Shown: in pieces, positions 6,482-57,000 of the stretch
Numbering within the stretch: the first letter of the stretch is position 1
Layout: every line of letters starts with the position of its first letter
IMG/VR virus record: IMGVR_UViG_3300004806_000019
Span: 20,224-84,223 of that record
Source: a virus
Strand: one strand, 5' to 3'
DNA: 64,000 nt
Made by a program: the position numbers and the translations under genes
The notes under the pieces: model-generated
Told to the model about the DNA's origin: nothing
The model's database searches: none
What the model saw: only the letters and a program-made list of their open reading frames with translations

Positions 6482-6482
6482 G

Positions 6483-8246: not shown

Positions 8247-8860
8247 AGGAGGTACGAGCCTCCGCTAATGAGGAACTGAACTTCGTGATTGCCGTATAAG
8301 AGATCTGTCTCCAGGCTCATCTTCCTTATGCCCGTTGGTGGTCCCATATAAGCAATCACTTCGTCATAAGTCATGCCGTTCCGAAGGTGCTTGAATTTCT
8401 CATCAATCGTTTCAAGCCGCGAGAATGAAGCTTGTTGGACAACTGGCTTCCTGTCCTCCTCTGCCATTTTGTAGATGAGATCCCTGATCTGGCCAGGATC
8501 AAAGGAAACCTGTGCAATGCAGGAAACCCGAAGATGATCCTCCTCCATAGAGGGAACTACAGAAATCGGGGTTATCTTAACCACAGAGCCAACCCACGAC
8601 TTCACTCTCTGAAGAAGCTTCTCATCAACCTTGCCGCTGGATTCATTCGTGGTAATCGTCGTAGAAGCCGTAACGATTGTCCCTGACGCCTCAAGTGCTT
8701 TTCTCGCTGCTTTGGCGAAGCAAGCCGATCTTGCAGCGGAATTGGTGTCAGAATCAGAGGCAATATAGGATGCACTTTGCATGACTGTTGCCGCCTCAAC
8801 TGGGACAAATGAGGCAATAAGAGGGGTAATTATCGTAAGAAGTGGAATTAATTTCCTCAT
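8240..8860 (-). CDS. Exported protein: FlgT-like N-terminal region plus SmpA/BamE-like C-terminal domain
   Basis: 206 residues. A signal peptide runs to about VEA (residue 24), so the protein should be periplasmic. Residues 25-125 (SAARSACFAKAARKALE, then a beta-rich stretch) resemble the N-terminal domain of FlgT-type flagellar H-ring proteins. The last 55 residues, with FKHLRNGMTYDEVIAYMGPP, resemble the SmpA/BamE lipoprotein fold. The start is ATG 8860, eight bases after AAGGAG; the GTG at 8869 is too close to that site. The FlgT resemblance is by eye and moderate; the BamE-like part is clearer. It follows a lipoprotein of the LPP20 family, which includes FlgP, in the same operon. Confidence 0.7.
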   Translation of the reverse strand: MRKLIPLLTIITPLIASFVPVEAATVMQSASYIASDSDTNSAARSACFAKAARKALEASGTIVTASTTITTNESSGKVDEKLLQRVKSWVGSVVKITPISVVPSMEEDHLRVSCIAQVSFDPGQIRDLIYKMAEEDRKPVVQQASFSRLETIDEKFKHLRNGMTYDEVIAYMGPPTGIRKMSLETDLLYGNHEVQFLISGGSYLLW

Positions 8861-8865
8861 AATGG

Positions 8866-9447
8866 TCACTCCTTAATGACTTCTGGACGAGGCGCAGAAG
8901 CCGGTTGAGGAGGCTCAGAAGCCTTCTTTATGTCGTTATCAAGCTCCTGATAGGCTTTTGAGGCGCGAAAATCATCCCGTGCAGTGTGATCAGACTGAGC
9001 AATTGCTTGCACCAGAGGGGCATTAAGTAAAACCCAAACCCGATAACCACCATTCTCAATGACGATCTTCTGATCCTTAACGATGTATCCGGAAATCGGC
9101 GCATTGATGGCCGTCTCTTTAACTGTCCTCTCAAAGTGAGAAGCAATGACTCTGGCGTCCTCAAGATGATCGGTTGTTTTTAGAGAGAGCTTTCCGGAAA
9201 TCTTTTCGGCAATCTGTCGTCTGGCCTGAAGGGAAGCCTTATCGATGGCCAACTGAAGATCCGAACTGGTAGCCGTTGCCACACCGATCAGCTTCCCGTC
9301 ATCATCAGGTGGGCTTGTGTACCAGCCAGGACTTTCGTCAGCAACCCGGCTGACTTGTTGCTCTATATAAGCAGGAGTCCCCGGCTTCGGGGATGAACAG
9401 GCCGTTAAAGCTATCGCAGAGACTGCGACATAAAGAACGTGTTTCAT
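8866..9447 (-). CDS. LPP20 / FlgP-like lipoprotein
   Basis: 193 residues. The N-terminus is a lipoprotein signal ending in the lipobox LTAC, so Cys17 should be lipidated and the protein anchored in the outer membrane. The body has SPGWYTSPPDDDGKLIGVA, then a long helix with ASLQARRQIAEKISGK, then GYRVWVLLNAPL: the layout of the LPP20 family, to which the flagellar protein FlgP belongs. The C-terminal tail is Pro- and Ala-rich. The start is ATG 9447 because GGAGGG lies four bases upstream; the ATG at 9462 overlaps the previous stop. A role in the envelope or flagellar basal region is inferred from family and neighbours. Confidence 0.82.
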   Translation of the reverse strand: MKHVLYVAVSAIALTACSSPKPGTPAYIEQQVSRVADESPGWYTSPPDDDGKLIGVATATSSDLQLAIDKASLQARRQIAEKISGKLSLKTTDHLEDARVIASHFERTVKETAINAPISGYIVKDQKIVIENGGYRVWVLLNAPLVQAIAQSDHTARDDFRASKAYQELDNDIKKASEPPQPASAPRPEVIKE

Positions 9448-9458
9448 AAAACCCTCCG

Positions 9459-9743
9459 TCATTTAATCCATTCAGTTTGCTGTCTTGCCCACTCAAGAAG
9501 ATCACTTTTGCGGTAACTCACATAGTTCCATCTGAACCGGATGTAAGGTGGGCCTCCCCCCGCATTGTTATTGATGGCCATGTTTGCCAAACGCTTTGTG
9601 GAAATTGGACACCCAATTGATTTCAGAAAGACGGTTGCCGCTTTCCGATTGAGCCATTCATCCCCATCCTCAAGAAGGAGTTTTGACTTCTTCATGTTCT
9701 CCCTAAACTCTTCCTTGAGCTTATCGGTTAAAACGCCAGCCAT
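9459..9743 (-). CDS. Small helix-turn-helix DNA-binding protein, likely operon regulator
   Basis: 94 residues. From about residue 29 the sequence WLNRKAATVFLKSIGCPI, then a glycine loop AGGGPPYIRF and YRKSDLLEWARQQ, follows the small excisionase/AlpA-type HTH pattern (recognition helix, wing, YxxxDLxxW end). It is the first gene of the minus-strand operon, directly downstream of a promoter overlapped by two CCCATTGGAT repeats, so autoregulation is likely but unproven. Its stop overlaps the following reading frame as ATGA. An excisionase role is possible, but no integrase lies in the window. Confidence 0.75.
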   Translation of the reverse strand: MAGVLTDKLKEEFRENMKKSKLLLEDGDEWLNRKAATVFLKSIGCPISTKRLANMAINNNAGGGPPYIRFRWNYVSYRKSDLLEWARQQTEWIK

Positions 9744-29207: not shown

Positions 29208-29232
29208 TAGCAAACAATATGGGGGTTTGCTA
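29208..29232 (+). promoter_or_regulatory. Hairpin around ribosome site and start codon
   Basis: TAGCAAAC (29208-29215) and GTTTGCTA (29225-29232) form a perfect 8 bp stem around a loop holding GGGG, the Shine-Dalgarno of the next gene. The last base of the stem is the A of ATG 29232, so folding could hide the start. It may time or dampen translation of the adaptor gene. The rest of the gap 29161-29207 shows nothing else. Confidence 0.4.
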
Positions 29233-29891
29233 TGGCTACTAGCGTAACCTACAATACTCTGGTTCAGGACGTTCAGGCATATCTGGAGCGTGGCGCATCC
29301 TCTACGACTGATGCAACGGTTACGGCGCAGATCCCAAGGCTTATCAACGCAGCAGAGCGCAAGCTGGCTCAAATCCTCAAGCTTCTAGGTCAGATTGAGG
29401 TTTTATCTGACGTAACAGGACTCACTCCGGGGAATCCCGTTATTCCAAAGCCTGACAGGTGGCGCCAGACTGTATCTATGAATTATGGGGCAAGCTCGGA
29501 TTCTAACTTTAGAACGCCCTTGTTTCCTAGAAGCTATGAATATTGCAGAACATATTGGCCGGATGACTCCCTGACTTCTCCGCCAAAGTTTTACGCTGAC
29601 TATGGGTATACATCGTGGCTTATCGTCCCGACGCCTGATGTCACCTACCCCTTGGAGATCACTTGCTATATGCAGCCTCCTTTGTTGGATGCGAATAACC
29701 AATCTAACTTTTGGACGATATATTGCCCGAATGCTCTCCTTTATGGGACACTGGTTGAGGCAATGCCCTTCCTGAAGAATGATGAACGTATTCCTGTTTG
29801 GGAAAATATGTATAAGGCGGAGATCGCCACATTAAGCGGTCAGGATCTGCAACGGCAAATGGACCGGGCATCAGAGCGGAGGACCGTCTAA
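29232..29891 (+). CDS. Tail tubular protein A / adaptor-like protein
   Basis: 219 residues. It shows the helical start of T7 gp11-type adaptors: YNTLVQDVQAYLERGASSTT, IPRLINAAERKLAQIL. A beta section with LFPRSYEYCRTYWP and YADYGYTSWLIVPTPD follows, then helices NALLYGTLVEAMPFLK and a basic end. Such proteins form a ring between portal/gp4 adaptor and tail nozzle. Together with the gp4-like and nozzle proteins it supports a short-tailed particle. The end overlaps nothing; the next gene starts at 29892. Confidence 0.72.
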   Translation: MATSVTYNTLVQDVQAYLERGASSTTDATVTAQIPRLINAAERKLAQILKLLGQIEVLSDVTGLTPGNPVIPKPDRWRQTVSMNYGASSDSNFRTPLFPRSYEYCRTYWPDDSLTSPPKFYADYGYTSWLIVPTPDVTYPLEITCYMQPPLLDANNQSNFWTIYCPNALLYGTLVEAMPFLKNDERIPVWENMYKAEIATLSGQDLQRQMDRASERRTV

Positions 29892-34413: not shown

Positions 34414-36189
34414 ATGAACAAGACACTGCATTTCCTTAGTGGTATCCCCAGAAGTGGGAGCACTGTGTTAGCCGCCATTCTTAATCAAAACCCGCTAACC
34501 CATGTCTCTACCACCTCTGGCCTAGTACACGCCTTGGATGGGCTTGCGAATACGTGGCACTCAGGTCCACTTCTTGTAGACAAAGACCCGGATCATAAGC
34601 AGCTTTGCGCGGCTATGCGGGGCGTGATTGACAATTTCTACACCGATACCGACAAGCCCGTCATTATCGACAAGTCAAGAGGGTGGCCGATACCGATTAT
34701 TATGGGGGCGATGACGCAAGTGCTTGGGAGAAAGCCTCGTATCATTGCAACGGTCAGGTCGATCCCAGATTGCGCGGCGTCTTTCATTCGGGTTGCTAAA
34801 CCCCAAGATCTGGACAAGTTCATCGCTGACGGTCAGTTGATGGAGCATCTGAAGGCGGCTTACATCTCTCTGCAAGAGGGCTGGCAGGCTGCACCAGAGA
34901 ACTTCCTGATTGTTGAATATGAAGACCTGTTGGCTGATCCGAAAGAGGTCTTGAACAGGGTCCATGCTTTCCTTGGGCTTCCTGACTTCACCTATGACTT
35001 TGAGAATATCGACGGGGAGCCTGTTAAGGAAGACGACGAGAACCTTCACGGCTATGCTGGGATGCACGACATTAAGCCGAAGCTGGAACACCAGCATAAG
35101 CAGCATCCGAGAGATGTCCTGAAGGAGCATTATGGGAGCTTCTGCCAGCCTGAGTTCTGGTTGGATAAGCCCAGGACGATCCCTGACATCTCTGATCTTG
35201 ACCTCCAGCTTGTGGCGTCACGGACAGGGGACTTTGAAGAGGGTTGGCGTCTGGCGCAGAAGATGGAACGGGAGATCCCGAATAACCATCGTGCGGCTTT
35301 CAACCGTGGCTGGTATGCGCTTCGACAGGGCAAGATCCAAGAGGGCTATAAGCTGATGGAGCGCGGCAGATATGTACAAGTCTTTGGAGATCCGCCACCG
35401 GATGCGCCAACGAAGCCTTGGGACGGTCTGGCGAAGGGCATTGTGCTATTGAACCTTGAGCATGGGCTAGGTGATCAGATCCACCAGATCCGCTTTGCCA
35501 AGCATATTGCCAAACGGGCTGGTCGGTGCGTTGTGTCTTGCGCGGGTCAATTGGCGTCCTTGTTTGTGGATGTTGAGGGGGTTTCTGCTGTCGTCCAGAA
35601 AGAGGCCAACTTCGGTATCTACCATGACTTCTACGTCCAGGGGATGAGTGCAATCCTGCCGCTTGGGTTTGAACTGCCTGACATTACGGGTGAGGCTTAT
35701 ATCAGGAAGCCGAATGTCATTCGTGGCAAGAAGTTCCGCATTGGCCTGCGCTGGCTTGGTTCCACTCGCTTTGAGCCGGATCATGTGAAGAGGTTCCCCC
35801 ATGAACTGCTGTTCAATGCGGTCAAGGACATTCCTGACGTTGAGTTCGTAAGCCTCCAGAGGGATGAGGGTGCCGAGCATCGCCCCTATTGGTGCCGTGA
35901 GGTTCCGCTTCAGTCTTGGGAGGATACGCGCAATGCTGTCGCCTCCTGTGACTTGGTGATTTCGTCCTGCACCTCTATCTCTCACTTGTCAGCAGCGATG
36001 GGCGTTGAGACTTGGGTTATCACGCCAATCATGCCATACCACTTATATGCGCTTGATGGCGAGAAGACTCCTTACTATGACCATATGCGCCTGTTCAGGC
36101 AGGAAGTGTTTGGGGAGTGGGAGCATCCCTTCATCAACATAAACAAACGACTGATGGAACGGTTCAGTTCCAAGATGGCAGCGGAATAG
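34414..36189 (+). CDS. Sulfotransferase-TPR-GT9-like fusion protein
   Basis: 591 residues. N-terminal sulfotransferase: P-loop-like 5'-phosphosulfate motif SGIPRSGSTVLAAIL (residues 9-23) and the 3'-phosphate motif TVRSIPDCAASFIR (about 112-125), then FLIVEYEDLLADP. Residues about 265-310 are TPR-like (AAFNRGWYALRQGKIQEGY). The last 240 resemble the GT9-like domain of the 413-residue protein in the minus-strand operon: LEHGLGDQIHQIRFAKHI, GLRWLGSTRF, SCDLVISSCTSISHLSAAMG. It could sulfate, and perhaps glycosylate, a virion protein or host surface glycan. A strong AAGGAG precedes the ATG. Placed between the RCC1 and fibre genes. Confidence 0.85.
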   Translation: MNKTLHFLSGIPRSGSTVLAAILNQNPLTHVSTTSGLVHALDGLANTWHSGPLLVDKDPDHKQLCAAMRGVIDNFYTDTDKPVIIDKSRGWPIPIIMGAMTQVLGRKPRIIATVRSIPDCAASFIRVAKPQDLDKFIADGQLMEHLKAAYISLQEGWQAAPENFLIVEYEDLLADPKEVLNRVHAFLGLPDFTYDFENIDGEPVKEDDENLHGYAGMHDIKPKLEHQHKQHPRDVLKEHYGSFCQPEFWLDKPRTIPDISDLDLQLVASRTGDFEEGWRLAQKMEREIPNNHRAAFNRGWYALRQGKIQEGYKLMERGRYVQVFGDPPPDAPTKPWDGLAKGIVLLNLEHGLGDQIHQIRFAKHIAKRAGRCVVSCAGQLASLFVDVEGVSAVVQKEANFGIYHDFYVQGMSAILPLGFELPDITGEAYIRKPNVIRGKKFRIGLRWLGSTRFEPDHVKRFPHELLFNAVKDIPDVEFVSLQRDEGAEHRPYWCREVPLQSWEDTRNAVASCDLVISSCTSISHLSAAMGVETWVITPIMPYHLYALDGEKTPYYDHMRLFRQEVFGEWEHPFININKRLMERFSSKMAAE

Positions 36190-36922: not shown

Positions 36923-38515
36923 ATGAAGCTTGGAAAACTGCCTGCCGTTGTTGATCCGAAAGTCCCGGTATTTTCCAGAGCTTGCACTCCTCCTGTCCCT
37001 CCGGTAACGGCTGATTGGTGTTCAAAGGTCGCAGACTGGCCTTTGGATAAGAATGACACGGTGGGGGACTGCACGATTGCGGCGGCTCAACACTTGATCC
37101 AGGCATGGACGACTTATGCCGGGAACCCGGTGATAGTGTCTGAGGCTGACGTGTTAGCAGCGTATTCTGCGATCTCTGGATATAACGGGACGCCTGCGAC
37201 GGACGTTGGGTGTGTTGAGTTATCGGTTCTGAAATATTGGCAGGCGACGGGGATTGGGGGCCATAAGATTAACTCGTTTGCGGCTCTTAACATTGCCAAC
37301 CTGAATGAGATCAAGGCTGCGATTAATTGGTTCGGGGGAATTTATATCGGGGTGAGGTTGCCGATTTCGGCACAGACGCAACCGGCTGTCTGGGATGTCG
37401 TTCCGGGTTCAACGGGGATACCTGGATCGTGGGGAGGACATGCTGTTTGTGTCCAGTCTTATGATGCGACAGGCATAACCGTCATCTCGTGGGGCAAGAC
37501 GATCAAGATGACGTGGGCTTTCTGGCTGGCCTATGTTGACGAGGCGTATGCGGTTGTTTCGACGGATTTCTTGAATGCACAGGGTGTTGATCCGCAAGGG
37601 TTGACGCTGGCTAACCTCATCGCTGACGAGGCTCTCCTTGCTGCTAACGTGTCAGGACCGAGTGATGCCCTGGTGACGTTTATCAATGCGGCGACTGCGC
37701 CTTCAAGTGGCGTGGGTGCTTTATTGGCTCCTAACCTTCTTCTGACTGCCGCGCCTGAGATGGCTCTTGGCGGGATTAACTTCCCTATCTTGGCGGGTGG
37801 GACTCAGGTTGATGGCGTGACGGCGGTTCAGGCTGGGACGAGGTATGCGCTTGGGTTGCTGTCCACTCCCTATATGTGCAGCGGATATCTTGGGTACATG
37901 TCAGGATGGAGCGGCGGTCAGGCGACGATAGCTTATGGGAACAACCAGTTTGCGAGTCAGGTGTTTGCGCCTGACTTTACGACGACGGTTCTTGCTAATA
38001 GCGCGGGTGGTCTGGTGATCGTTGGTACGTCTATAGTTGGCGTGATGATCACGACAAGTTCGGCTTATATCTTTAGCTCTGCCGACATTGACCAGATAGA
38101 GAGTTTCATCACGACCCTGACGGGGGCGGCTCCTGCGATAGTCAGGTTATATGGCGGGATCTTAGGGCGTTACCCGACGATAGCTGAGAACCAGTGGTAC
38201 ACGAAGAACCTGTATCTTCCTGCCTATAACGCGTCACCAGGATCTGCGTTGCATGTGCTGGGAAACAATCTTGGTATTCTTTACTGCTTTACGCACTCGC
38301 CAGAGTTCATGGGTGGGAGTAGTGGTTATGGCAAAGACCCAGTAGCCTATGTGACATATTTGTACCAGAATGCCTTGGGGCGCTCTCCTTCTACTAGTGA
38401 GCTTACTTGGTATGTGGCACAATTAAAAAGCCGTGATCTCTGGGATGTTGTCGCACTGAACATCACTCAGAGCGATGAGGCCAGAGCTTACAACGGTGTT
38501 TGGAATCAGCAATAA
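36923..38515 (+). CDS. Papain-like cysteine peptidase with two C-terminal DUF4214-like domains
   Basis: 530 residues. The N-terminal 210 show a papain-like layout: DTVGDCTIAAAQHL with catalytic Cys50, WGGHAVCVQSYD with His near 173, then ISWGKTIKMTW. A middle region of unclear fold (about 225-400) includes GLVIVGTSIVGVM. Two DUF4214-like units end the protein: VRLYGGILGRYPTIAENQWY, and YVTYLYQNALGRSPSTSELT. DUF4214 is known from secreted and surface-layer proteins. Possible roles are virion protein processing, cutting host surface peptides, or cell-wall attack. No signal peptide. Confidence 0.78.
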   Translation: MKLGKLPAVVDPKVPVFSRACTPPVPPVTADWCSKVADWPLDKNDTVGDCTIAAAQHLIQAWTTYAGNPVIVSEADVLAAYSAISGYNGTPATDVGCVELSVLKYWQATGIGGHKINSFAALNIANLNEIKAAINWFGGIYIGVRLPISAQTQPAVWDVVPGSTGIPGSWGGHAVCVQSYDATGITVISWGKTIKMTWAFWLAYVDEAYAVVSTDFLNAQGVDPQGLTLANLIADEALLAANVSGPSDALVTFINAATAPSSGVGALLAPNLLLTAAPEMALGGINFPILAGGTQVDGVTAVQAGTRYALGLLSTPYMCSGYLGYMSGWSGGQATIAYGNNQFASQVFAPDFTTTVLANSAGGLVIVGTSIVGVMITTSSAYIFSSADIDQIESFITTLTGAAPAIVRLYGGILGRYPTIAENQWYTKNLYLPAYNASPGSALHVLGNNLGILYCFTHSPEFMGGSSGYGKDPVAYVTYLYQNALGRSPSTSELTWYVAQLKSRDLWDVVALNITQSDEARAYNGVWNQQ

Positions 38516-39003: not shown

Positions 39004-39366
39004 ATGAGCATGATCAATTTAATCCCCTGGCAGCATGGAGTTCTATGGACATTAACGTTGTTCTGCCTCTTTGTTCATTCACAGGTTGTAATTGTTGGGG
39101 CGATTATTGCGTATAAGGCAATAGAGAATAAGGCCGCACGAGCAGCCAGAGATACAATTTATATATCTTGTCTCTCTTTGTTATTTGTTGCATTGCAAGC
39201 AGACTGGATTATCGAGGGGTATACTGTTACAAAGATAAAGGCTATTTCCGATATCGGGTGGCGTCTTTTCGATTGTGGTGTCGGTGTTGCTTTATTGAGG
39301 CATATGAATGTCAGACGATGCTTCGCATGTGCATACTGGGGGAAAGGACGCTCGAATGACTGTTAA
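39004..39366 (+). CDS. Small membrane protein, about three transmembrane segments
   Basis: 120 residues with hydrophobic segments near 8-35 (VLWTLTLFCLFVHSQVVIVG), 52-68 (ISCLSLLFVALQADWII) and weakly near 85-98. GGGGGATG precedes ATG 39004. Could be a holin or a membrane anchor for the next, periplasmic-facing protein; not decidable from sequence. Confidence 0.6.
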   Translation: MSMINLIPWQHGVLWTLTLFCLFVHSQVVIVGAIIAYKAIENKAARAARDTIYISCLSLLFVALQADWIIEGYTVTKIKAISDIGWRLFDCGVGVALLRHMNVRRCFACAYWGKGRSNDC

Positions 39367-40063
39367 AGCTGTCGTTGCTGCTGTCTTTGTCTCGATTGGT
39401 CTTGGTTCTTTTATTGTCTGGCTTGATGTCATACGACCTATGAGACTAGTTACACAGATTCACCCTCCTTATCAGACGCTGAGTGGAAACCGTGTTGGAG
39501 GCTCTCTTACTGAGATTGTGCTTTGTGCCGCAACGAAGGTCGGCCATCCATTCACATTAGAATGGGGTCCGTGGGCTGAGATGCAGGATAGAGTTTATAA
39601 CAGTAAAGCAGACGCTTTCTTTGGGGCATTCAGGACAACGTGGCGGGACAGTTTTGCGACGGCCTCAAACCCTATTCTTCCTGCGCGGATCGTGAAGATC
39701 GTTGCTAATCACCTCCCTCATTACCCTCCTATCATTGGCGTCAAGATGGGTGCGGGAGTAAGTTCTCAAGCGATAACATCTGGGGCTGTTGCGATACGCC
39801 ACGAGTTCATGGACAATTATGAGATCGTTGATGCTTTGCTTGATGATACGATTGATTTTGCATTCTTGGATATCGTGATCTTAAATGAGATCCTGATGGA
39901 GAAGAGGCTTCCCCTGGACACCTTTAAGACAAGCTACATATACGATGAAAGCTATTCGGTGTATTTTTCCAATAAGTTTCTGGAAACCCATCCAGGGTTT
40001 TTGAGTTCATTTAATAAATCTTTGATAGAATGTAATCCTGCGTCTCAGGAGAGAGTTAAATGA
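39356..40063 (+). CDS. Membrane-anchored solute-binding-protein (family 3)-like protein
   Basis: 235 residues from ATG 39356, preceded by AAAGGA; the longer frame from 39308 overlaps the previous gene. An N-terminal hydrophobic segment (AVVAAVFVSIGLGSFIVWL) acts as signal or anchor. The rest follows the periplasmic binding protein family 3 outline: HPPYQTLSGNRVGGSLTEIV, VYNSKADAFFGAFRTTWR, then DDTIDFAFLDIVILNEIL. Transport genes are absent, so it may sense or sequester a ligand, or act on envelope. Truncation of the family's usual C-terminal lobe is slight. An unusual phage gene. Confidence 0.7.
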   Translation: MTVKAVVAAVFVSIGLGSFIVWLDVIRPMRLVTQIHPPYQTLSGNRVGGSLTEIVLCAATKVGHPFTLEWGPWAEMQDRVYNSKADAFFGAFRTTWRDSFATASNPILPARIVKIVANHLPHYPPIIGVKMGAGVSSQAITSGAVAIRHEFMDNYEIVDALLDDTIDFAFLDIVILNEILMEKRLPLDTFKTSYIYDESYSVYFSNKFLETHPGFLSSFNKSLIECNPASQERVK

Positions 40064-40076
40064 ATGGTATTGTGAA

Positions 40077-41651
40077 GTGACAGCCATACCTATCGATATA
40101 AGCTTTGCTCCTGGTGTATCCAGAGACACCACATTATTTGATACGCAAACTGCGCTTGATGTGTTGTGGTGCAGATTCCGTAATGGTCGCCCTCGTAAGA
40201 TGGGTGGATATCAACGTATTACGGATAATCTTTCAGGCGTCCCTAGGCGCATCCATATTTTCTATCAAGGTTCTCAGGCAATCATTCACATCGGAACGAC
40301 AGCGGGGTTGCAGCAGGTCGTTATCGATTACAATGGTAACTTCATAAGTTCTGCGGATAGAACCCCTGTATCAGGGTTTACGCCTAGCGCGAATATCGGG
40401 TGGACCTTAGACTCGATCTTCGATACCAATACTGGCGTCGTGAACCTTATAGCTCACGCTACCGCTGATTCAAACGCTCCGTATAATCTGACCCAGACCG
40501 TTCCATTTATCGGGCAGATTACGCTGACTACTGTTCTGGTGAAGTTTTCAGATCCGGGGTCTTACGGTGGTGGGGCGTGGACTCAGCCTGATGTTGCTGG
40601 GGGTATCGTTTGTGTTCAGCCTTATGTCTTTGATTATGATGCTGCGGGATTGGTTGGGTGGAGCGCCCCAAACATCCCTCTCTATTTAGGGATAACCGGG
40701 GGAAGTTCTGGTGCTGGTCAAGCAAGGATTTCTTCTCAGAAGATTATGGCTGGCGCTCCTTTGCGAGGGGGTGGTGTTCAACAGCCATCGGTATTGTTCT
40801 GGAGTTTGTCCGAAGTTATAACCGGGACATTCGTTGGAAGTAATGCGGGTTATTTCGCTTTCTCCACGATTTCAAACTCATCATCGATCATCTCGACAAA
40901 GGCCAATATTGAATATGACGGACTGCATTACTGGTGCGGGATCGACAGGTTTCTGGTTTACAACGGAACCGCTCAAGAAGTGGCAAATCCTCATAACCAG
41001 GATTGGTTTTTCAATAATCTCAATTGGACTTATGCGGGTAAAGTCCAGGCTTTTAAAGTTCCTCGTTATGGAGAGATCTGGTGGTTAGCTCCGTTATTCG
41101 GGGCGACTGAATGCTCTCATGCGATTATCTACAATGTAAGAGAGGGAACTTGGTATGACACCGAGCTTCCCGATGGGGGGCGTTCCTGTGGTGCTTTTGC
41201 CCAAGGATTAAGATATCCGATTATGGGTGGCACGGCTCAGAACGCAAATGGATATAAGTTATGGCTGCATGAATCCGGTACGGATGAGGTCGATGGTAAT
41301 GTGACTAATCCTGTACGGTCTTACTTTGAAACGCCATATATGGGTGGACCTAGGCAGCAACAACCAAACGATAAGGGGTTGTCTTATCAGCAGTTAGAGC
41401 CTGATTTCATCCAAACTGGAGATATGACGGTTTCTATTGTTGGTACGGCGAATGCCAGAAGCCCTGTGTCGAATGGAACGGCTGTTCCTTTGAAGGCTGT
41501 CCCCGGAGTACCACAAGAGCAATTGGTTTCGTTTAAAGAAGGACATCGGTTAGGAAGCCTTCATATTGAATCAAATGTGTTAGGTGGGAGCTACATCTGT
41601 GGGAAAAACCTCCTTCATGTAGAGCCAGCGGAAGCAAGGATTGTATCGTGA
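40077..41651 (+). CDS. Tail nozzle / P22 gp10-like DNA stabilisation protein
   Basis: 524 residues. The start, PIDISFAPGVSRDTTLFD followed by WCRFRNGRPRKMGGY, is typical of gp10-like nozzle proteins of podoviruses, which close the head after packaging. The remainder is a beta-propeller-like repetition with YDGLHYWCGIDRFLVYNG and YNVREGTWYDTELPDGG. The start is GTG 40077; no strong ribosome site is seen, so it may be coupled. A gp4-like adaptor upstream and the small gene after it complete the usual set. Confidence 0.8.
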   Translation: MTAIPIDISFAPGVSRDTTLFDTQTALDVLWCRFRNGRPRKMGGYQRITDNLSGVPRRIHIFYQGSQAIIHIGTTAGLQQVVIDYNGNFISSADRTPVSGFTPSANIGWTLDSIFDTNTGVVNLIAHATADSNAPYNLTQTVPFIGQITLTTVLVKFSDPGSYGGGAWTQPDVAGGIVCVQPYVFDYDAAGLVGWSAPNIPLYLGITGGSSGAGQARISSQKIMAGAPLRGGGVQQPSVLFWSLSEVITGTFVGSNAGYFAFSTISNSSSIISTKANIEYDGLHYWCGIDRFLVYNGTAQEVANPHNQDWFFNNLNWTYAGKVQAFKVPRYGEIWWLAPLFGATECSHAIIYNVREGTWYDTELPDGGRSCGAFAQGLRYPIMGGTAQNANGYKLWLHESGTDEVDGNVTNPVRSYFETPYMGGPRQQQPNDKGLSYQQLEPDFIQTGDMTVSIVGTANARSPVSNGTAVPLKAVPGVPQEQLVSFKEGHRLGSLHIESNVLGGSYICGKNLLHVEPAEARIVS

Positions 41652-46970: not shown

Positions 46971-48098
46971 ATGGTTGGGATGTTAAACGCAATTGCTGGC
47001 AGATATCATTATGATGAAGGCGGCTCTACTGGAGATGACGACCAGCAGAGAGGTCCACTCTCCACTTATGACCCGTCTGTTCTTGGCAATATGCAGAATG
47101 CAGTCCTAGGGGGAACACCTGAATCTGCCTTGCAGAAATATAAGGATGCCCAATCAGCACAGGAAGCAGCGGCCCAAGCAAAGAAGGATCGTATCCAACA
47201 GGCAATGGATACACTGAGTGCAAATCGCTCCAATCTCCCGATGATGGCTTTTGGCGCAGGGATGATGAAGCCAACCCACACTGGCACGTTTGGCGAAACA
47301 CTTAGTAATGCAATGAGCGATACAATCCCCGCCATTGATAAGCAGCGTCAATATGAGGCGCAGCTTCAGCAGATGGGGGTTTCAGCGGCTGACGTTGATC
47401 TGGCCCAGAAGACTAAAGCGGCCCAAGATTGGACAGACCGGATGAAGCTTGGGTTGACTACGGCAGAAACAAACCAGAGATTGCAGCAAAGTGATCAGCA
47501 ACATCAGGATTCGCTTAATCTTCAGAGGCAGCAGCTTCAAGGACAAAAAGGATATTATGATTATTTGAAGCAAGAAGACCCTGACGAAGTTTCCTCATGG
47601 GTGCCATTGTATGAAAAACCGGGCGTTCAAAAGATGGACCCTGTAAGTGGCTTGCCGTTATATCAAGGCATGAGCAAAACAGAGAAGCCCGTCGGTCAGC
47701 CTCGGATTGTTAGAAGTGATGATTTGGATAGCAGCAATACAAGTTCCCGTGCAGATCCGATTATTTCGCAGTATAATTCGGCTCAGAAGGCGCTTGATGC
47801 TGCTATTAGCAAAAGGTACGTTATATTAGGATCAAATCCTAAAGCCGATACGAAAATGTTAGATGAGCAAATCGCTCGTCAAAGAGAGCTTGTTGAACAA
47901 TTGAGAGTTGCGGCTACGACAAGGTTGGGAGGCTCAACCACAACGCAGCCTGTATCGCCGGATCCCTTAGCGGCAGGATTAGGGGGAAACGGAAGTGTTC
48001 CTTCTAAGAAGCCAAACATTGATCCTGGCATATATTCTCCTTCTCAAGAAGCAGCTAGGTCTGGAGCATTTCCCGCCCCACAGCCAGGAATTGATTGA
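46971..48098 (+). CDS. Helical internal virion-type protein
   Basis: 375 residues from ATG 46971, six bases after GAGGGA; the longer frame from 46914 overlaps the previous gene. It contains YHYDEGGSTGDDDQ near the start, a segment GAGMMKPTHTGTFGETLSNA typical of phage internal proteins, and a long Gln-rich coiled coil (about 140-200). The end is Pro/Gly-rich. It stops on the start codon of the giant protein (TGATG), so the two are made together. Confidence 0.65.
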   Translation: MVGMLNAIAGRYHYDEGGSTGDDDQQRGPLSTYDPSVLGNMQNAVLGGTPESALQKYKDAQSAQEAAAQAKKDRIQQAMDTLSANRSNLPMMAFGAGMMKPTHTGTFGETLSNAMSDTIPAIDKQRQYEAQLQQMGVSAADVDLAQKTKAAQDWTDRMKLGLTTAETNQRLQQSDQQHQDSLNLQRQQLQGQKGYYDYLKQEDPDEVSSWVPLYEKPGVQKMDPVSGLPLYQGMSKTEKPVGQPRIVRSDDLDSSNTSSRADPIISQYNSAQKALDAAISKRYVILGSNPKADTKMLDEQIARQRELVEQLRVAATTRLGGSTTTQPVSPDPLAAGLGGNGSVPSKKPNIDPGIYSPSQEAARSGAFPAPQPGID

Positions 48099-51000
48099 TG
48101 CCTGAAGATCGCGCAGATGCTCCCCTACCGGAATCAGTGGACATTTCGGAGGCTACTCCTGCACCTGTTATAAACTATGTTAATTACACTCCCGCCCCGA
48201 CTCAGGCGCCAATAAAATCATCATTGCCTCCTTTGACACCGCGTCCAACAGAAAAGCCAGCACAAGGTCTTCCGTTAGACGTTGTTAAGCAGAAAGTGGC
48301 AAAGTTAAAAGATGCCGGTTATTCGCAGGATGAGATTGCTGAATCTCTTATGAAGAATCCTTTTTTCGGCCCTCGTATATCTGAGGCGGCTGATAAAGGA
48401 TGGGAATATCCAGAAATTTTTTCGAGATTTGGCCTCGATGGATATGATCCAACGGAAGGTGGTCCGTTAAAGACTCCATGGCGATATGTCAAAGCAGGCG
48501 TTGAATCTGCTGGGGAAATGATTGGAAACACTCTCCAGGGCGGAGCTATCGCTTCAGACCGAAGATCTTTATATGCTCCATATTATGAGGACTACACCTC
48601 GTTTAAGAGCAAGTCTCCTGAAGAGCAGCAGCAGATTCTTAGTAAGATCGCTAATAGTGATATGGACTTGGAGGCCAGACAGAATCTTACAAAAGAGTTC
48701 CGCAGGCTTCAAGAGGGGGCAAATCCTAGACAATTTGACATGCTGGCAAATCAGCCAGTTGAACAATTGCCTGGATACAAAGTTGGACAATGGTTCAAAG
48801 ACACCACACAGGGACTGCTTAATCCTGAAGAGGAAAAGCTAACTGGCGTTAGGATTGCTAAAGCTGCTGCCCCTATCGTTCCTGCTATGGCTGCAACAGC
48901 ACTTGCCGGTCCTGCTGGCCCAATGGCTCTGTTTGGCGGGTCTTCTTATCAAGAGGGTTATGAGAAGGCAAAAAAGGTTGGCGCCTCAGAAGAAGCTGCC
49001 CGTGACGCTGCTATGAAAGAAGCCGGTATTGGTGCTGCCGCTGGTGTTCTGGATGTTGGAGCCATATTAGGCCCAATAGCAAAATACTCTCCTGAACTCC
49101 TTAATAGGGCGCAAGCAATCCTTTATAAAGGTATTCAAAGCGGTGTCATTGGAAGTTCAGTCGGAGAAGCTCAAAAGTGGCTGAATGCTCAGATTGAACG
49201 CACAACTTATGATCCAAATGCACAATATAAATTTGATCCGACAGAAGCTGCGATTGGATTTGCAGGGATGGCAATTCCAGGTGCAGTTCATGGGGCATTC
49301 CATGAGCAAGCCCCAAAAGAAACCGCTCCGACAGGAACAGATATTCCTCATCCATCATTGATTGCCCATGCTTATTGGAGGATTGATGAGCTTGAGTCTA
49401 TCTACAATGGAACAGAGGGAAACCCTCCAAGGGATCTAACTCCTGCTGAAGCTGCCGAATACGCATTTCTTCAGAAGAACAAAAATAAGCCCGAAGAGCT
49501 TTCTAAAGTGATTCGTGGGACTGAGCCTTCTGAGCAACCGGAGCCGACTCAAGCGCCAACAGTTACGCCAGCCCCAACTGTTTCTAAATCTAATAAGCCT
49601 CCGAAAGCGACAAAGGCTCCTGTGCAGGCTGAGATACAAGCTCAACCTGAAGCGCAAGTTCAACCGGAAACACAGGATAAGGTTCAAGAGGCTGCTAACG
49701 CCCTTGTCGAAGAGGCAAAGCAGAATCCTACGGTTACAACACCTGAAAAAGATAGTGATATCTCCGCTCAAATTAAGGAGATGATCAACCCAAACAACCC
49801 GAGAGATTCTGTCTACATTGCTCCAGGGAATGAGCATGAAATCCCTGTCAGTGCTTTAGATCATCCAGGTGTTGAGCTTGCTGAAAATCCCGTTAGTAAG
49901 GCTTTGTTGCTAACGACCAATATGGACAAAGCCATAGATTTTCAGAAGAACAGAGATCTCACAGAAGAAGAGAAAGCCAATTTGCTGGGTCTTTCTCAAC
50001 CCAAAACTGAGGCGTTAAAAGATCCTAATGCTGTCGTCGTTCAAGGGAAGAATGAGGATGGCGCTATTGTTCATCAGGAGCTTACCTCACAGGATAACCT
50101 GCCTAACTCTGTAGAGAACACAGCGAATAGGACTCCTGAAACTGGTCAAGTTGAAGTCGCCAGCACAACAGGAGCGCAAGCCCATAGAGTTGGTGGTGAT
50201 GATCAAGCTGTTCCTGTGGCAAAAGGAAAGGTTCCGACTCCCGATCCTGAGATACAGATTGCTGAGATCCGTAAGCAGATTGAATCATTTGAAGAACATC
50301 GGGATCAAGCTCTTGAAGTTGGGGATACTCCTACGGCTCAGAATTGGCATAACCGTATAAGGGAGGCTAATGAACAAATAGCCGAGCTTCAAAGAGGTCA
50401 ACCGTTAGAAAAAGAGCCAGCAGTTCAAGAGAGTGAACCCGCTTCTCCGCAGGCTCCGTCAACCGATATTCCTTGGGAAAATCATTATCAACGAGCAGTT
50501 GATGTCGTTGGGAGCGAGAGTTTCCCGCTTAAAAGCAAACCACTTGCAGATAAGCTTGGGGTTGATGAGGCTATGGCAACAAGGCTTTTACAAGCCATGG
50601 CGTCCAGGGGAGCTATTAGGCAAACAAAGAATGGTGGGTTTTCACGAAATCCAGATAGAGGCCCGTTAGACTTTCTTACATTCTTGGCAGCAAAGGGAGG
50701 TCTTCGGGATGATGAAGGCCATCTTCTTGCTCAAAGTATGGACGCTCAGAGGATGGTTCCGAATTACGGACCTTTAATCCGTAAGAATGGAATGGGGATT
50801 GATCAGGCAGGGGAAGCTTTGTGGCAGGCCGGATATTTTGGCCCGACTGATTCTACGCCAAGGCCAACAGAGACAGAAGTATTAAACAAGCTAAGTGAAG
50901 CCCTGAATGGGAGACTTCCTCTTGAAGAGCGGTATTCTGAATATGACCGAGATCGGGTGCAAAAGATTCAGGACACCAAGACCGCTAAAGATCGGGAGAA

Positions 51001-54000
51001 GCTTGAAAAAACAGCTAGGGCTGACATTGAGAAGCTTAATGAAGAAAAGACATATGGATTAACCCCAGAAGAAAAAGCTAGAGCGATTGAGCTTTTGGTT
51101 GAGCATCCAGAGGATTTCTCTCCAGAGGAGGCTGTTGTTCACGTTCTCGATACGTCAATGATTGAGGATCTTCATGGGGCTATTGACGTAGCAAGGGATG
51201 CACATGATGACGAGTTTTCCGATATACCGTTTGAGTGGCCAGCAGAGGTTGAACCTCCTCAACGAGGCGAAGAGGAGGGTAAAGGGACAGAAGTCTCTAT
51301 CCCCACTTCAGAGGAGGAATCTGGCACGGTTGGCAAAGAACCTGGAGAAGGTGAACGCCAAGATCTCCGTGACAAAGAAATAGGTGATGTCATTGGTGCA
51401 GGGGAACGGACAGCCCCACCAATGGACAGAGAGCGTCAGCAGGCGGAAATAAGGGCGCGACAGGCAGGTAAGAAAAGAAGCGGAAAAGAACAAGAAGAAC
51501 CGGGCGGGATGTTTGCCACGGAAGAAAAGGGGTTATTTTCCGAACCGAAGAAAACCGCTGATTATGGAACTCAGAATAAGGTCATTACAGCAGACGCGGC
51601 GGAGAAAGCTAGAGAGCTTCTTCGCAAGAAATCAAATCAGATTAATGCTGGTATTGACCCTGAAACCATGTTGGCTGGTGTTACGCTTGCTGCCTATCAC
51701 ATAGAGGCAGGAACAAGAAAGTTCGTAGATTTTGCAAGGGCTATGGTTTCTGATGTCGGCGCATGGATTAAGCCGTACCTGAAGTCATGGTATAATGCGA
51801 TCCGCGATTATCCGGGGTTGGAGGAAGCTGCCAAGGACATGACGCCGCATGAAGAAATGAATGCGGCCATGGATCAATTGGAAAGGGAAGGCTATGTATC
51901 AAGCGAATCCAGAGGTCTGGAACAAACTGGCGAGGGACCAAAAACTGAAAACGCCATGGGCAAAGAGGCTCTTCCCACTGAAGAGAGAGGAGCTTCACAA
52001 GGCGTTAGAGAAAGAAACGGAGAAGCTGAAGCAAGAGGGAATAACAAGCCCTCAAGTGAGGAGCAGCTTCCTTCAGATGGCGCCTCTTCTGTGGGAGAGA
52101 GAGGCAATAGCGAAAGAGACGCAGGAGAACCCGGCTTTGGGGCAGTGCCTGCCGAACGTGGAGGACGCCCAGGAGGCTACGATGTTAGCCAGCATGGACC
52201 GGCCATTGAGCATATCGAACCAGAAGAAGTTAATAAAACTGCTGGAGACTCCAAGACAGTAGCTCAGAGGTTTGCAGAGCAGAAGATTGCAAACTCTCGT
52301 CCAGTTGTCTGGAACGATATTAATAACATCAGAGAGACATTACCCGCTCTATTCCCTGATCAACAAGATGATGTTCATAAGTCTGAAAAACGTCTGAGTG
52401 TTGCTCATGGGATTATGATTACCAACGGAACTGGCACCGGCAAGACATGGAGTGCTGGTGGTGTAATCGCTAGATTTGTCCGTCAGGGAAAAGAAGACAT
52501 TCTTGTTGTTGCCCCCTCTCAGGACATCCTCACTGATTGGAAAGCTGCCCTTAAACATCTTGGTGTCGATGCCTCCGTTTTAGAAGGGACGCAGAAGTCT
52601 GGTAAGGGCGTAACACTTACTACCTATGCTAATCTTGGGGAAAATCGCCATATAGCGGATCGGAACTGGCATTTAGTTGTCGCAGACGAAAGCGATAATC
52701 TTATGTCAGATCAAAAAGGGAATACCACAAAAGCTCTAAATAGCTTCAGGGCGATCACGAACCATCCCGACGCATTGTATATTAGAGCGGATATGGCTTT
52801 GAGGGATCTTAATGATCGTGTTGCAGATCTCTCAGAGCGTGTTCATAAAAATTATAACAACAAAGAACTGACCTCTCAGTGGATAAACGCCCAGAGAGAG
52901 CTTGAGCAAAAACGCAAAGAGTTGGTTGATGTATACAAAGATCAACCGCGATCAAAGGCTATATTCCTTTCGGCCACTCCATTTTCATATGACAAAACAA
53001 CTGACTATGGAAATGGCTATCTGTTCGATTATCAAAAAGAAGGTAATAGAAGTGGGTATAACGTAGCTGAAGGTCGTAACCTTTTTATGGTTCAGAACTT
53101 TGGCTATCGGATGAGAAATGGGAAACTCACGGCTCCAGAAGCAAATGTTAATAGTGAGGTTCTTGAAAGAGATTTTCATGAACGCCTGAAGAAAGAAGGG
53201 GCTTTGATCGGGAGACGGTTGGAGGTTGATTCTGACTATGATCGTAAGTTCATATTAGTTAATGACGCTATTGGGAATAACATTGACCGGCTTCTTGAGT
53301 TTTTGCGTGAATCTGATGACGGGAAATTCCGTCCGATCTATTCATTCGTTAATGATAGATTTGATTATCTTTCAAGGCAGAGGTTGCTTGAGGCAATCAA
53401 GGCCAATCACGCAATCCCTATTATTCGGGAACACCTTGCTCTTGGCAGAAAGGTTGTTGTCTTCCATGACTTCAATGAAGGTGGTGGATTCCATCCTTTT
53501 GATACGAGTGAAATTCCAAATAACCCTGTCTTTGTTACCGTCAATGGAAAGTCACATGAGTTCAATTTAAAAGACCTCGCAAACGAATTTCACGACAGGA
53601 ACCCTGACGCAATAAAAATGGACTTCTCATCTATGAAAAGTCCGATTGAAACGATGACCAAGGCTTTTCCAGAAGCTCTTGTCTACAATGGAACGGTAAG
53701 TTCCAAGAACAGGGCCACCATCAAGCAACTCTTTAATCAAGATGGTTCTGGCAGAGATGTCATTGTTATTCAATCGGCTGCTGGTAGAGCGGGAATAAGC
53801 CTGCACGACACAACGGGAGTCCATCAAAGGGTTTTAATTAATCTTGGTATGCCCACTCGGCCAACAACCTCAATTCAACAAGAGGGGCGCATTTATCGTA
53901 CAGGGCAAAAGTCCGATGCAATGTTCCGGTATATGAATACTGGCACAGCATGGGAGCGGGAAGCATTTGCCAGTAGGATTGCTGAACGGGCAAGCTCAGT

Positions 54001-57000
54001 TGAAAACCTTGGAATGGGGAACCAAGCACGTCAATTGAAGCAATCATTCATTGATGCCTTCAATGACACATCTGAGTACCCTCCTTCTCCTGAAGAGGGA
54101 AAAGGTGGGAAATCATTAGACCGTCAGACATTCAGTGATATGTCTGATTTTGAAAGAGCTAAAACTTATTACTTTGCAGAGCAGAAGAAGACGGGTCGCA
54201 GAGATCAGCGTGAGGGTGTTGACTATTTTCCAACACCAGAACCGTTGGCACAGAAGATGGTTGAATGGGCAAATGTTAAGCCCGGAGAGAAAATCCTTGA
54301 ACCATCTGCTGGTCATGGCGCGATATCTCGTTATTTCCCAGAATCTACAGAACGCACTATCGTTGAGCCGTCTAAGGATCTTGCAACCAGAGCCAGCCTA
54401 ATGACTCCTGGCGCTAGAGTGGTGAACGATAAGTTTGAGAATCTGCATATCTCAAATAAGTACGATGGGATTGTTATGAATCCACCTTTTGGCATTGGTG
54501 GAAAAATGGCAATTGAACATCTGGCTAAAGCTGCTTCCCATGTTCGGGAAGGAGGGAGGATCGTTGCCCTTCTCCCAGAAGGACCGGCAACCGATAAACG
54601 TCTTGCTGCATTTAGAGATAGTGATGCGGCAAAAGACCTTCATCTAGTTGGAACGGTATCCTTGCCGACTCATATGTTTGATCGGGCAGGAACAAACGTT
54701 AAGTCTCATGTTCTTATATTTGAAAAGCATACCGTTCCAAAACAGGCAAATCAGTATGGCTCTGATGTCGGAGATAAGATCCGATCTGTTGTACACCATG
54801 CAGATCTGTCTAACTCTCCAAGCATTAACGATACGTTCAATCGACTTGAGCATTTGTCGATGCCTGATCGTATTGAGCCGGTGACTAAAGAGGTTGAGGC
54901 TCCAGAAGTTCCATCAAATGGAAAGGTTGTCGTTAGTGGGCTGGCCCTGAGTTCAATAACCAATAAAGACGGGTCTATCATGGTCAGCCCGACCAAGCGT
55001 CTTGGCGCCAATGATTATGCTCGGTTTATGCGGGTTGGTGAGAGATATGGGGGGGTCGAAAATGATTATTATAGTGGATTATCATTTAAATCTCCCGATG
55101 AGCGCAGTGCGTTTTTTAATGCTTTAGAGCGTGGTGAAACAGGGAATGAGCCTTCCGCTGAAGCTCAAAGGCAAATTGATAATGGTGGATTAGGCGTTAC
55201 CTTTGATCGTAAGCAAGGGTTGCGTGAAGATGGTGCTGTTTATGAGAAACTTCATACTCAGACCAGAAAAAAGCTTTTTTATGCAAAGCCTGATAACAGA
55301 GTATCCCCTGAGACTTATCAAAAGCTAAAACAGATTGCTGGAGAAAATGGCGGAGGATTCTGGGACCGCTATGAGAAAGCATTCAGGTTTAATGACGAAG
55401 ATAGCCGTCAAGCATTTATGAATAAAGTTACAGGGTCACTCCCCCTGAAGAGTGGAGACTTGCGGGTTGGCAAGAAAATGGACGCATTATATGTCCATAA
55501 GTCTGCCATCGATACGCTTCCAAAGGATGCTCAAAATCGTATTGAAAGAGCAAAGCCTCCGTTTGATTGGGATGTTGCCAAGATAAAAAGAGACAAAGAT
55601 GGCGCTCTTGAGAATGTCTCTCTTATTGAGGCAAAAGATTTTGATGAAGCTGATGAGCCGAGTGTCGGAAGATCCTTTGTCATAGATAGAGACGGAGAGA
55701 CTCGTATCATCCCAGCTTCTGGGAAAATTTATCATGGTAAATGGCAAATGGTTAAGTCCGACTATCAGGGCTTTGATGTTGATGCCAGCAAGGAAAGAAC
55801 ACGGCTTCTTGACAGCGTAACGTCAACTGAGGACAAGAGACGGTACGGTCAAAAAGATTACATGGATAATGTTGTCGCGCCTAAGCTGTCTAACAATGCA
55901 AAATTAGCAGATCGGTTCTTAACTGATCGGGACAAAGTTCCTGAGACAGTAACAACTCTCGACTACAACCCAAAAGATGGGATTGTTCAAAAAATTAGCT
56001 CGGCTAACACGGTGCGTCGTCAAGCTGCACAAGTTTTCGGCAATGATAAGTTTTATCCTAGATCCGAAACGCCGTCTTTTAATCTTGATCTTGGTGGCGG
56101 AAAATTCCCTGAAGGAACAGAACGACTTGCTGAAAAGGGAATAACCAATCTCATCCATGATAAATATAATCAGAGTGAGCAGCATAACAGGGATGTTGTT
56201 GAGAAGGTAAAGGCTGAGAAGGGAACCGGAATCGTTTCTGCCACTAATGTTCTAAATGTCATCAAGGAACCAATGGCAAGGCTTGACCTTATTCGCCAAG
56301 CTGCAAAAGGTTTGAAGGATGATGGGGTCGCTTATTTCCAAATCCATGAAGGTGATAAGAGTGGAGAAGGGAAAGAGACAAGTGATGGGTGGCAAGCCAA
56401 TAAGCTGACATCAACCTATCTTCCTATGGTCAGGCAGTATTTTGGCAAGGTTAAGCAGGTTGGCAGGCCAGATGCTCCTAAAGGCAATCTAATTATTGCC
56501 GCAGAGCCTAAGAGAATACCGGGACAAACTATTTGGGAAGGCACTGAGCCTTGGGATACCAAAGGCAATACCGTGCCTATGTTCTCGGGGGACGTGCGTA
56601 ATGAGCATTACTTCCCTGAAGATGGTGAGGGCCTGATTGCTCATAATGAATCTTTAAGCCCAGGAGATGCTGAGTTAGTTCATAACGATGCACGGGCATA
56701 TGTTTTGGATCGAGGAAACGAAACCGGCCATGAGCATGGGATTGCTGTTCATTCTGATGGGCGAGTTGAACATTTTACGGAAGGAAAAGAGGATACTCTT
56801 TCTATAAAGAAAGTTGCTCCAGAGCTATATCGTGAGATGGAGCAAGCTGGTAACAACATTGACGTTCATCATAATCACCCAGAGGGAACGAGCGCCCCAC
56901 TATCTGAAAGTGATTTGCAGCTATCGACTCTTGATGGTGTCAATCGTGTAATTGCCCATGCTGGAGACGGTGTATTTTCCGTTGCAAAATGTTCGGACGC

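Follow-up and report, generated by a model that had tools for sequence, protein, structure and literature searches.

The open reading frame (ORF) at positions 34414 to 36189 of a 64,000-nucleotide stretch of DNA from a tailed phage (IMG/VR record IMGVR_UViG_3300004806_000019, positions 20,224 to 84,223; hereafter the window, part of an 84,223-base and possibly incomplete virus record) was found to encode a protein in which a sulfotransferase, tetratricopeptide repeats (TPR) and a GT9-like glycosyltransferase (GT) half are fused, and genes for TPR-GT9 proteins and sulfotransferases, whether fused or separate, were shown to adjoin, or to sit a few genes from, genes for RCC1 beta-propeller proteins in four unrelated phage groups. 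We propose, with evenly balanced confidence, that the fusion and these genes form a system by which the phage modifies tail adhesins of its own with a sugar, probably heptose, and with sulfate. Compared with known virion glycosylation, the new elements are the fused sulfotransferase, the adhesin-specific linkage and the co-encoded donor-pathway genes. The initial annotation of the window, made from the letters alone, had recognized the fusion, and Pfam, fold matches and homologues bore it out; its interpretation was partly supported. It had overlooked the partner gene, the RCC1 protein, whose linkage to the enzyme recurs in unrelated phages.

The fusion is a constrained three-domain protein

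The ORF encodes a real and strongly constrained protein of three domains (Table 1). It starts 18 nt past the stop codon of the preceding gene and is served by the ribosome-binding site GAAGGAG. An AlphaFold model built on 99 diverse sequences from fusion, sulfotransferase-only and TPR-GT9-only loci reached a predicted local distance difference test score (pLDDT) of 95.3 and a predicted template modeling score (pTM) of 0.79 for the fusion, and an earlier run on 14 near-identical sequences (pLDDT 54) was discarded. The structure search separated the fusion cleanly into the three domains; no viral model spanning the whole fusion was found in BFVD. The median ratios of nonsynonymous to synonymous substitution rates (dN/dS) were 0.054, 0.052 and 0.070 for the sulfotransferase, TPR and GT parts, respectively. 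In one related locus (L036:7157-8903), the fusion appears as two adjoining open frames (196 + 400 aa), reflecting either a sequencing error or a broken copy.

The sulfotransferase was the sole domain detected by Pfam in the whole fusion, residues 7-190 matching both Sulfotransfer_3 (PF13469; E 2.8e-15, 57.6 bits against a gathering score of 27) and Sulfotransfer_1 (PF00685; E 4e-10, 39.9 bits against 22), and the match to phrog_27463 spanned residues 1-251 (E 3e-46). Among 45 diverse sulfotransferase domains, G10, R13, S16, R115 and S123 were conserved in 100% and P12 in 97%, and K87, R89, W91 and H218 were almost or entirely invariant. Both phosphosulfate-binding motifs are thus intact, as had been noted initially, and the profile match together with the conserved 5'-phosphosulfate-binding and 3'-phosphate-binding residues predicts an enzyme dependent on 3'-phosphoadenosine 5'-phosphosulfate (PAPS). 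In the structure search of the model, the best fold match of residues 1-258 was tyrosyl-protein sulfotransferase 1 (TPST1; Z 19.2, 241 residues, 3.7 Å), other sulfotransferases matching less well (Z 11-16, with heparan sulfotransferases at about 14 and cytosolic SULTs at about 11). TPST1 and TPST2 were also matched by profile (E 3e-10), and they share with domain 1 the PAPS motifs and a Lys equivalent to K87. However, the TPST catalytic Glu motif (GEETR) aligned opposite the Thr33/Thr34 region, so that domain 1, although similar to TPST in fold, is not a TPST by this test. Unlike the two TPSTs, moreover, it belongs to a short phage protein in which no segment precedes the catalytic domain.

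TPR was not detected by Pfam in the fusion protein itself; other members of its family score as TPR, and residues 259-324 of the model matched the TPR of AspH over 66 residues (1.7 Å, Z 11.8). This part probably serves for substrate docking. Residues 342-586 adopted a fold matching WaaC (Z 16.4, 230 residues), WaaF (Z 15.5), a Veillonella GT9 enzyme and TibC (both Z 15.4). PF01075 gave no match above the cut-off in the fusion and weak matches in three of 99 relatives, and no PDB relative was found with a HMMER profile of the GT half. We therefore call this half GT9-like, since the relation rests on fold and on a homologue encoded at 5240-6481 of the window, with no Pfam match. Residues G351, G353, D354, T505, Y542 and W569 were invariant in 82 GT halves, D354 being the base Asp of the GD motif, and the T-x-x-x-H motif was retained at T520 in 93% and at H524 in 96% of these relatives.

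The homologue, a minus-strand protein for which Pfam reports TPR and a sub-threshold GT9 match, shares 23% identity with the GT half over 341 aa (BLASTP E 5e-15). The relationship noticed initially is thus real but distant. The shared substrate that the initial annotation had read from the two copies is not supported at such identity, and the partner of the minus-strand copy is a TPR-GT41 protein instead of RCC1.

Table 1. Coordinates of the fusion, its parts and related features in the window
Feature	Residues	Position	Strand	Basis or remark
Sulfotransferase-TPR-GT9 fusion	591 aa	34414..36189	+	Intact 591-codon ORF
Domain 1, PAPS-type sulfotransferase (predicted)	1-258	34414..35187	+	PF13469/PF00685; phrog_27463, E 3e-46; TPST1 fold
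5'-Phosphosulfate-binding loop, SGIPRSGST	9-17	34438..34464	+	Conservation in 45 diverse domains
3'-Phosphate-binding motif, RSIPDCAAS	R115-S123	34756..34782	+	Conservation in 45 domains; aligned with TPST
Domain 2, short TPR-like helical hairpins	259-324	35188..35385	+	Model helices 261-321; AspH TPR match
Domain 3, GT-B of GT9 (heptosyltransferase) type	342-586	35437..36171	+	Fold; invariant residues
Domain 3 motifs	D354 (GD motif); C519-T520 and H524 motif		+	Alignment of 82 relatives
21-repeat RCC1 protein, proposed tail adhesin and proposed substrate	1073 aa	31174..34395	+	Pfam RCC1, E 4e-264
Protein matching C-terminus of minor tail protein family	128 aa	30786..31172	+	phrog_8780, E 6e-8
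DUF4376 protein	189 aa	36199..36768	+	PF14301, E 6.5e-6
TPR-GT9 protein	413 aa	5240..6481	-	Distant relative of domains 2-3; separate cassette

The enzymes are linked to presumed adhesin genes in unrelated phages

The gene directly upstream of the fusion encodes the RCC1 protein. Gene orders are abbreviated below (R, RCC1; F, fusion; G, TPR-GT9; S, sulfotransferase). In the group of the window, where the order is RRFR or similar, the gene just before the fusion was RCC1 in 104 of the 110 loci that have an upstream gene (mean 23 and maximum 33 in shuffled gene orders), and the gene just after it was RCC1 in 78 of 106. The isolated cyanophage S-SRM01 carries the halves as separate genes in the order R, R, G, R, S, with several small genes, among them one for a 2-oxoglutarate (2OG)-Fe(II) oxygenase, between G and the third R. 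Across the 31 related contigs of this type, R directly preceded S in 29/29 and G in 26/26 cases. The AG-345-E08-type viruses have the order R.R..G..RS, with S after R in 11/11 and TPR-GT9 three genes past an RCC1 gene, and RCC1 lies directly before TPR-GT9 in 65 of 87 BUCT-ZZ01-type phages. Since the enzyme halves of the other groups are only about 20-40% identical to the window protein, the linkage must be old or repeated.

The linkage was further examined from a neutral starting point, using as the query a small tail protein encoded ahead of RCC1 genes in the window phage group. Downstream sequence of 4 kb or more was available at 46 loci, which comprised 17 with RCC1 and enzyme, none with RCC1 alone, one with enzyme alone and 28 with neither (Fisher p 1e-11, whose true weight is smaller because the loci are related). 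In the single exception (L324), the sulfotransferase directly follows a glycine-rich protein with the N-terminal segment GIWTLDQAADYAKQGIWP, as in many RCC1 proteins. Likewise, the RCC1-less sulfotransferases of S-SKS1, AG-345-O18 and AG-345-L05 stand directly after, or one gene from, kelch-like or LamG genes. Because these cases adjoin glycine-rich, kelch-like and LamG genes, the sulfotransferase seems as a rule to stand beside the gene of an adhesin, most often RCC1 among those observed.

A reverse-order fusion, TPR-GT9-sulfotransferase, provides a Rosetta stone for the two enzymes (L248:10001-12004 and L254:1042-3045); its 5'-phosphosulfate loop is degenerate (GLPMAGQDS, L248) and its 3' motif is retained. 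Moreover, close relatives of the window showed identities of 0.70-0.72 for the RCC1 neighbours and of 0.96 for the fusion, and such faster divergence of RCC1 would be the pattern expected of an adhesin beside a conserved enzyme.

Two side observations concern the adhesin genes themselves. An N-terminus resembling GGSAPGIWTLDQAxxYxxxGLWP recurs in many RCC1 proteins and in the glycine-rich protein (L324:11631-12614; L002, L003, L094 and others), with looser forms in kelch/LamG proteins, and is probably a common tail-attachment segment for exchangeable adhesins. In addition, the RCC1 islands of cyanophages (L057:13908-23136 and L051:3008-15117) encode further modifying enzymes, 2OG-Fe(II) oxygenases among them, which suggests multi-step adhesin modification.

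Genes resembling donor pathways are co-encoded

Of 53 fusion loci whose downstream sequence exceeds 5 kb, 37 contain an adenosine 5'-phosphosulfate (APS)-kinase-family gene (PF01583, 50.8 bits against a cut-off of 21.1). The fullest cassettes (L094, L084, L088, L092, L093, L097 and others) run RCC1, RCC1, fusion, RCC1, RCC1, small tail protein and APS-kinase/nucleotidyltransferase, followed by heptose-1-phosphate adenylyltransferase, a cupin, heptose-7-phosphate kinase, ADP-heptose epimerase and genes including a phage lysozyme. The heptose enzymes of L094 were assigned from 170 bits to TIGR02199 (rfaE_dom_II, cut-off 181.5) for the adenylyltransferase, 109 bits to TIGR02198 (rfaE_dom_I, cut-off 345) for the kinase and 195 bits to TIGR02197 (cut-off 274.6) for the epimerase. 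Both HldE halves are encoded by AG-345-E08 and AG-345-O18, and the adenylyltransferase occurs in 26 of 81 BUCT-type loci. As far as these family assignments go, the model proposed here would predict both pairings, GT9 with ADP-heptose-type genes and the sulfotransferase with a kinase of the PAPS type. The proteins of 261-264 aa at L204:6706-7500 and L094:12511-13296 combine the APS-kinase domain with a C-terminal GRWQPWHEGH nucleotidyltransferase domain, closest to nicotinamide mononucleotide adenylyltransferases, and are candidates for a miniature PAPS synthetase beside the fusion.

Proposed mechanism and related systems

According to the proposed mechanism, the enzyme would act in the cytoplasm, encoded directly after the gene of the RCC1 beta-propeller adhesin, and its TPR would dock the newly folded adhesin. 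The GT9 domain would then place a sugar, most likely heptose from ADP-heptose, on the adhesin, and the sulfotransferase would subsequently add a PAPS-derived sulfate, most likely to the sugar and possibly to a side chain. The adhesin would join the virion bearing an anionic sulfated sugar, which may adjust receptor binding, shield the repeats or hide the particle. What we infer is that the adhesin accepts the modification, which sugar is transferred, where the sulfate sits and what the phage gains. We regard it as very likely that both enzymes are active and as rather likely that they act on a phage adhesin; for heptose as the donor sugar the chances appear even, and we lean neither way between sulfate on the sugar and sulfate on the protein.

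The docking step is drawn by analogy with FlmG of Caulobacter, whose TPR binds flagellin and whose GT-B domain glycosylates it (PMC7591256). Like the presumably soluble fusion, FlmG is a soluble TPR and GT-B protein of similar size (596 aa), and, as proposed for the fusion, its TPR binds the substrate and a surface-exposed structural protein is modified in the cytoplasm. In contrast to the fusion, FlmG lacks a sulfotransferase, uses pseudaminic acid as the donor and has flagellin as the substrate; the likeness drawn here is in domain architecture.

The sugar-transfer step follows TibC, which heptosylates an adhesin and belongs to the TibC/AAH bacterial autotransporter heptosyltransferases (PMC4358343). 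TibC has, like the GT half of the fusion, a GT-B fold close to WaaC, and it glycosylates a repetitive adhesin with ADP-heptose, and genes resembling those of the ADP-heptose pathway are carried by some phage relatives. The four-Cys iron finger of TibC/AAH (PMC4358343) has no counterpart in the fusion, as no CxxC pair was found by inspection of residues 330-591. The fusion further differs in carrying TPR in place of the N-terminal beta-barrel and in having a sulfotransferase, which TibC lacks; TibC/AAH enzymes form a dodecameric ring.

Decoration of virions by phage enzymes has a precedent in the mycobacteriophages Che8 and Rita, whose glycosyltransferases modify virion (capsid) proteins (Freeman et al., 2023, cited in PMC11256854). 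As cited there, that case concerns Mycobacterium capsid proteins, and the account describes no sulfotransferase or PAPS/ADP-heptose genes. Sulfotransferases of phages have been counted among auxiliary metabolic genes of unclear function (PMC10580990, PMC12285232), and the former report states that their function "remains unclear", in line with the initial remark that phage sulfation has little precedent. Those of cyanophage and OM43 phage, including S-SKS1 and S-SRM01, are homologous to domain 1 (28-33% identity) and, unlike the fusion, single-domain (PMC10580990). In the literature searched, neither a link of phage sulfotransferases with adhesin genes nor a precedent for sulfated-sugar modification of virion adhesins was found. 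For RCC1 proteins of phages, a part in DNA condensation has been conjectured (PMC7247149). Apparent mentions of RCC1 in papers on an Ostreococcus virus and on RcGTA were rejected, the text matches being strain or locus codes.

The linkage offers phage sulfotransferases and RCC1 proteins one joint candidate role, as adhesin-modifying enzyme and adhesin, and adhesin decoration could explain the purpose of sulfotransferases in phages. The relatives in hundreds of aquatic phages point to phages attaching a sugar, probably sulfated, to adhesins of their own. More tentatively, aquatic phages may carry dedicated sulfoglycosylation cassettes for beta-propeller tail adhesins, the fullest of which would include their own PAPS and ADP-heptose supply. 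If the proposal holds, phages make sulfated adhesins from PAPS and ADP-heptose of the host or of their own supply, with consequences for adhesin binding to cell surfaces, for host-range evolution and for the annotation of sulfotransferase and APS-kinase genes in viromes. The idea is directly testable in S-SRM01 and BUCT-ZZ01, isolated cyanophages carrying the linked genes.

Several observations weigh against the proposal. None of the kinase and heptose enzymes reached the NCBIfam equivalog cut-offs, and complete heptose sets were present in nine of 116 fusion loci, many of them on short contigs. The APS-kinase and heptose genes were not found in the 84-kb record of the window, so that the window phage would use PAPS and ADP-heptose of the host. 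RCC1 proteins with no nearby enzyme occur in phages of Gram-positive hosts and of Marinobacter, so RCC1 needs no modification in general. The linkage can also come from co-transfer of the tail-adhesin module, and the presence of RCC1 in these virions is deduced from gene position.

Alternative explanations

The initial annotation had left open sulfation of phage fibres or of host glycans; the former, as sulfation and glycosylation of the phage adhesin, is now the leading idea, and the latter its main rival. In this rival, which we consider unlikely, the enzyme would heptosylate and sulfate the lipopolysaccharide (LPS) core or another host surface glycan during infection, blocking superinfection or keeping released virions from sticking to debris, and the enzyme and adhesin genes would lie together since both concern the same receptor. 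Phage receptor-altering genes are indeed often near tail genes, GT9 enzymes are classically LPS heptosyltransferases, as the WaaC/WaaF fold match recalls, and the same phage carries the minus-strand cassette with envelope-type lipoproteins. A host glycan as the substrate is nevertheless difficult to reconcile with the absence of the enzyme where RCC1 is absent in the neutral test and with the S-SRM01-type loci, where an RCC1 gene of its own precedes each enzyme gene. To our knowledge, LPS GT9 enzymes lack TPR, an element for docking proteins. Furthermore, no tyrosine integrase was found in the record, hence there is no sign of lysogenic conversion.

Direct protein sulfation, in which Tyr (or Ser/Thr) of the RCC1 repeats would be sulfated and the GT would modify other residues independently, also appears improbable. 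The nearest solved folds and profiles are those of TPST1 and TPST2, and a Tyr precedes S-S-P in the RCC1 loops in 53% of the repeats of the window group (NTTNYSSP) and in 49% of those of the E08 group. The same loop position, however, is 87% Arg in the S-SRM01-type and 87% Arg+Lys in the BUCT-type linked RCC1 proteins. With Tyr in two groups and Arg/Lys in the other two, the RCC1 proteins linked to the phage enzyme have no consistent acceptor Tyr, which weakens Tyr sulfation as a general mechanism. The replacement of the catalytic Glu motif by Thr points the same way, and TPST sites are typically in acidic surroundings, which the RCC1 loops lack.

A passenger or structural role, in which the gene moves with RCC1 tail modules by recombination, frequent in tail-adhesin regions, or its domains bind in the virion with no catalysis, would suit the degenerate loop of the L248 reverse fusion but is very improbable given the conservation of the PAPS-binding residues and the GT9 GD motif across the forward-fusion family, the dN/dS of 0.05-0.07 and the co-encoded genes resembling donor pathways.

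Distribution in viruses and cells

A single-protein scan of IMG/VR recovered 42 loci, mostly with the full-length fusion at 64-72% identity, and the profile search that the initial annotation had called for yielded 497 relatives there; the fusion as such is present in several hundred of the IMG/VR contigs. That annotation had also held that the fusion, if common in hosts with a known non-glycan role, would speak against its reading. A scan of 84,980 host species, restricted to two short patterns, matched two contigs, both of them phage DNA: RCC1 accompanies tail genes on one (3.2 kb) and capsid-like genes on the other (28 kb). In the class of the second contig, 42 of 274 genomes matched, always with one half only, that phage contig excepted; the GT9-like domain, initially described as rare, is thus not rare in the form of TPR-GT9. 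No fusion was found in cellular chromosomes, either among the 84,980 species with the two patterns or among the 274 class members. Since the host matches are phage contigs and the cellular matches one half only, the fusion is a virus feature; cells commonly encode sulfotransferases and TPR-GT9 as separate proteins. By megablast, no relative of the window was found in INPHARED; among its 50,697 records, related RCC1 occurred in 27, a relative of the minus-strand TPR-GT9 protein in five, and RCC1 together with TPR-GT9 in three different viruses.

The tail module and other features of the window

The fusion had been placed next to tail fibre genes. The tail module setting stands, with products of 29232-29891 and 40077-41651 matching virion structural proteins, but the neighbour is the RCC1 beta-propeller protein and not a generic fibre. 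RCC1 genes of several other phages sit among tail-fibre, baseplate and lysis genes. From its position and an N-terminal motif like that of the small protein following RCC1 genes in relatives, the DUF4376 protein (Table 1) may be of the tail-fibre-assembly type. Just downstream of the fusion, the ORF at 36923-38515 (+) encodes 530 aa with a C-terminal DUF4214 and an N-terminal match to phrog_19005 (E 9e-33). In some relatives, a GIY-YIG-like homing endonuclease gene, identified by eye, separates the fusion from the RCC1 gene that follows it (L005:5474-6181, L006 and L084:9776-10330).

The minus-strand cassette at 5240-9743 comprises the TPR-GT9 protein, a TPR-GT41 protein (OGT/SPINDLY-like; PF13844, E 3e-53), an LPP20-type lipoprotein and a small secreted-looking protein, and is perhaps a second protein-glycosylation or envelope cassette. 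A relation of the GT half to the adjacent TPR-GT41 protein (6483-8246) was considered and rejected, as no similarity was found. The 251-aa ORF at 39308-40063 (+) resembles by eye an amino-acid-binding protein of the periplasm, an unusual find in phage DNA, and a single ORF of 3922 aa at 48095-59863 (+) occupies about one-fifth of the window.

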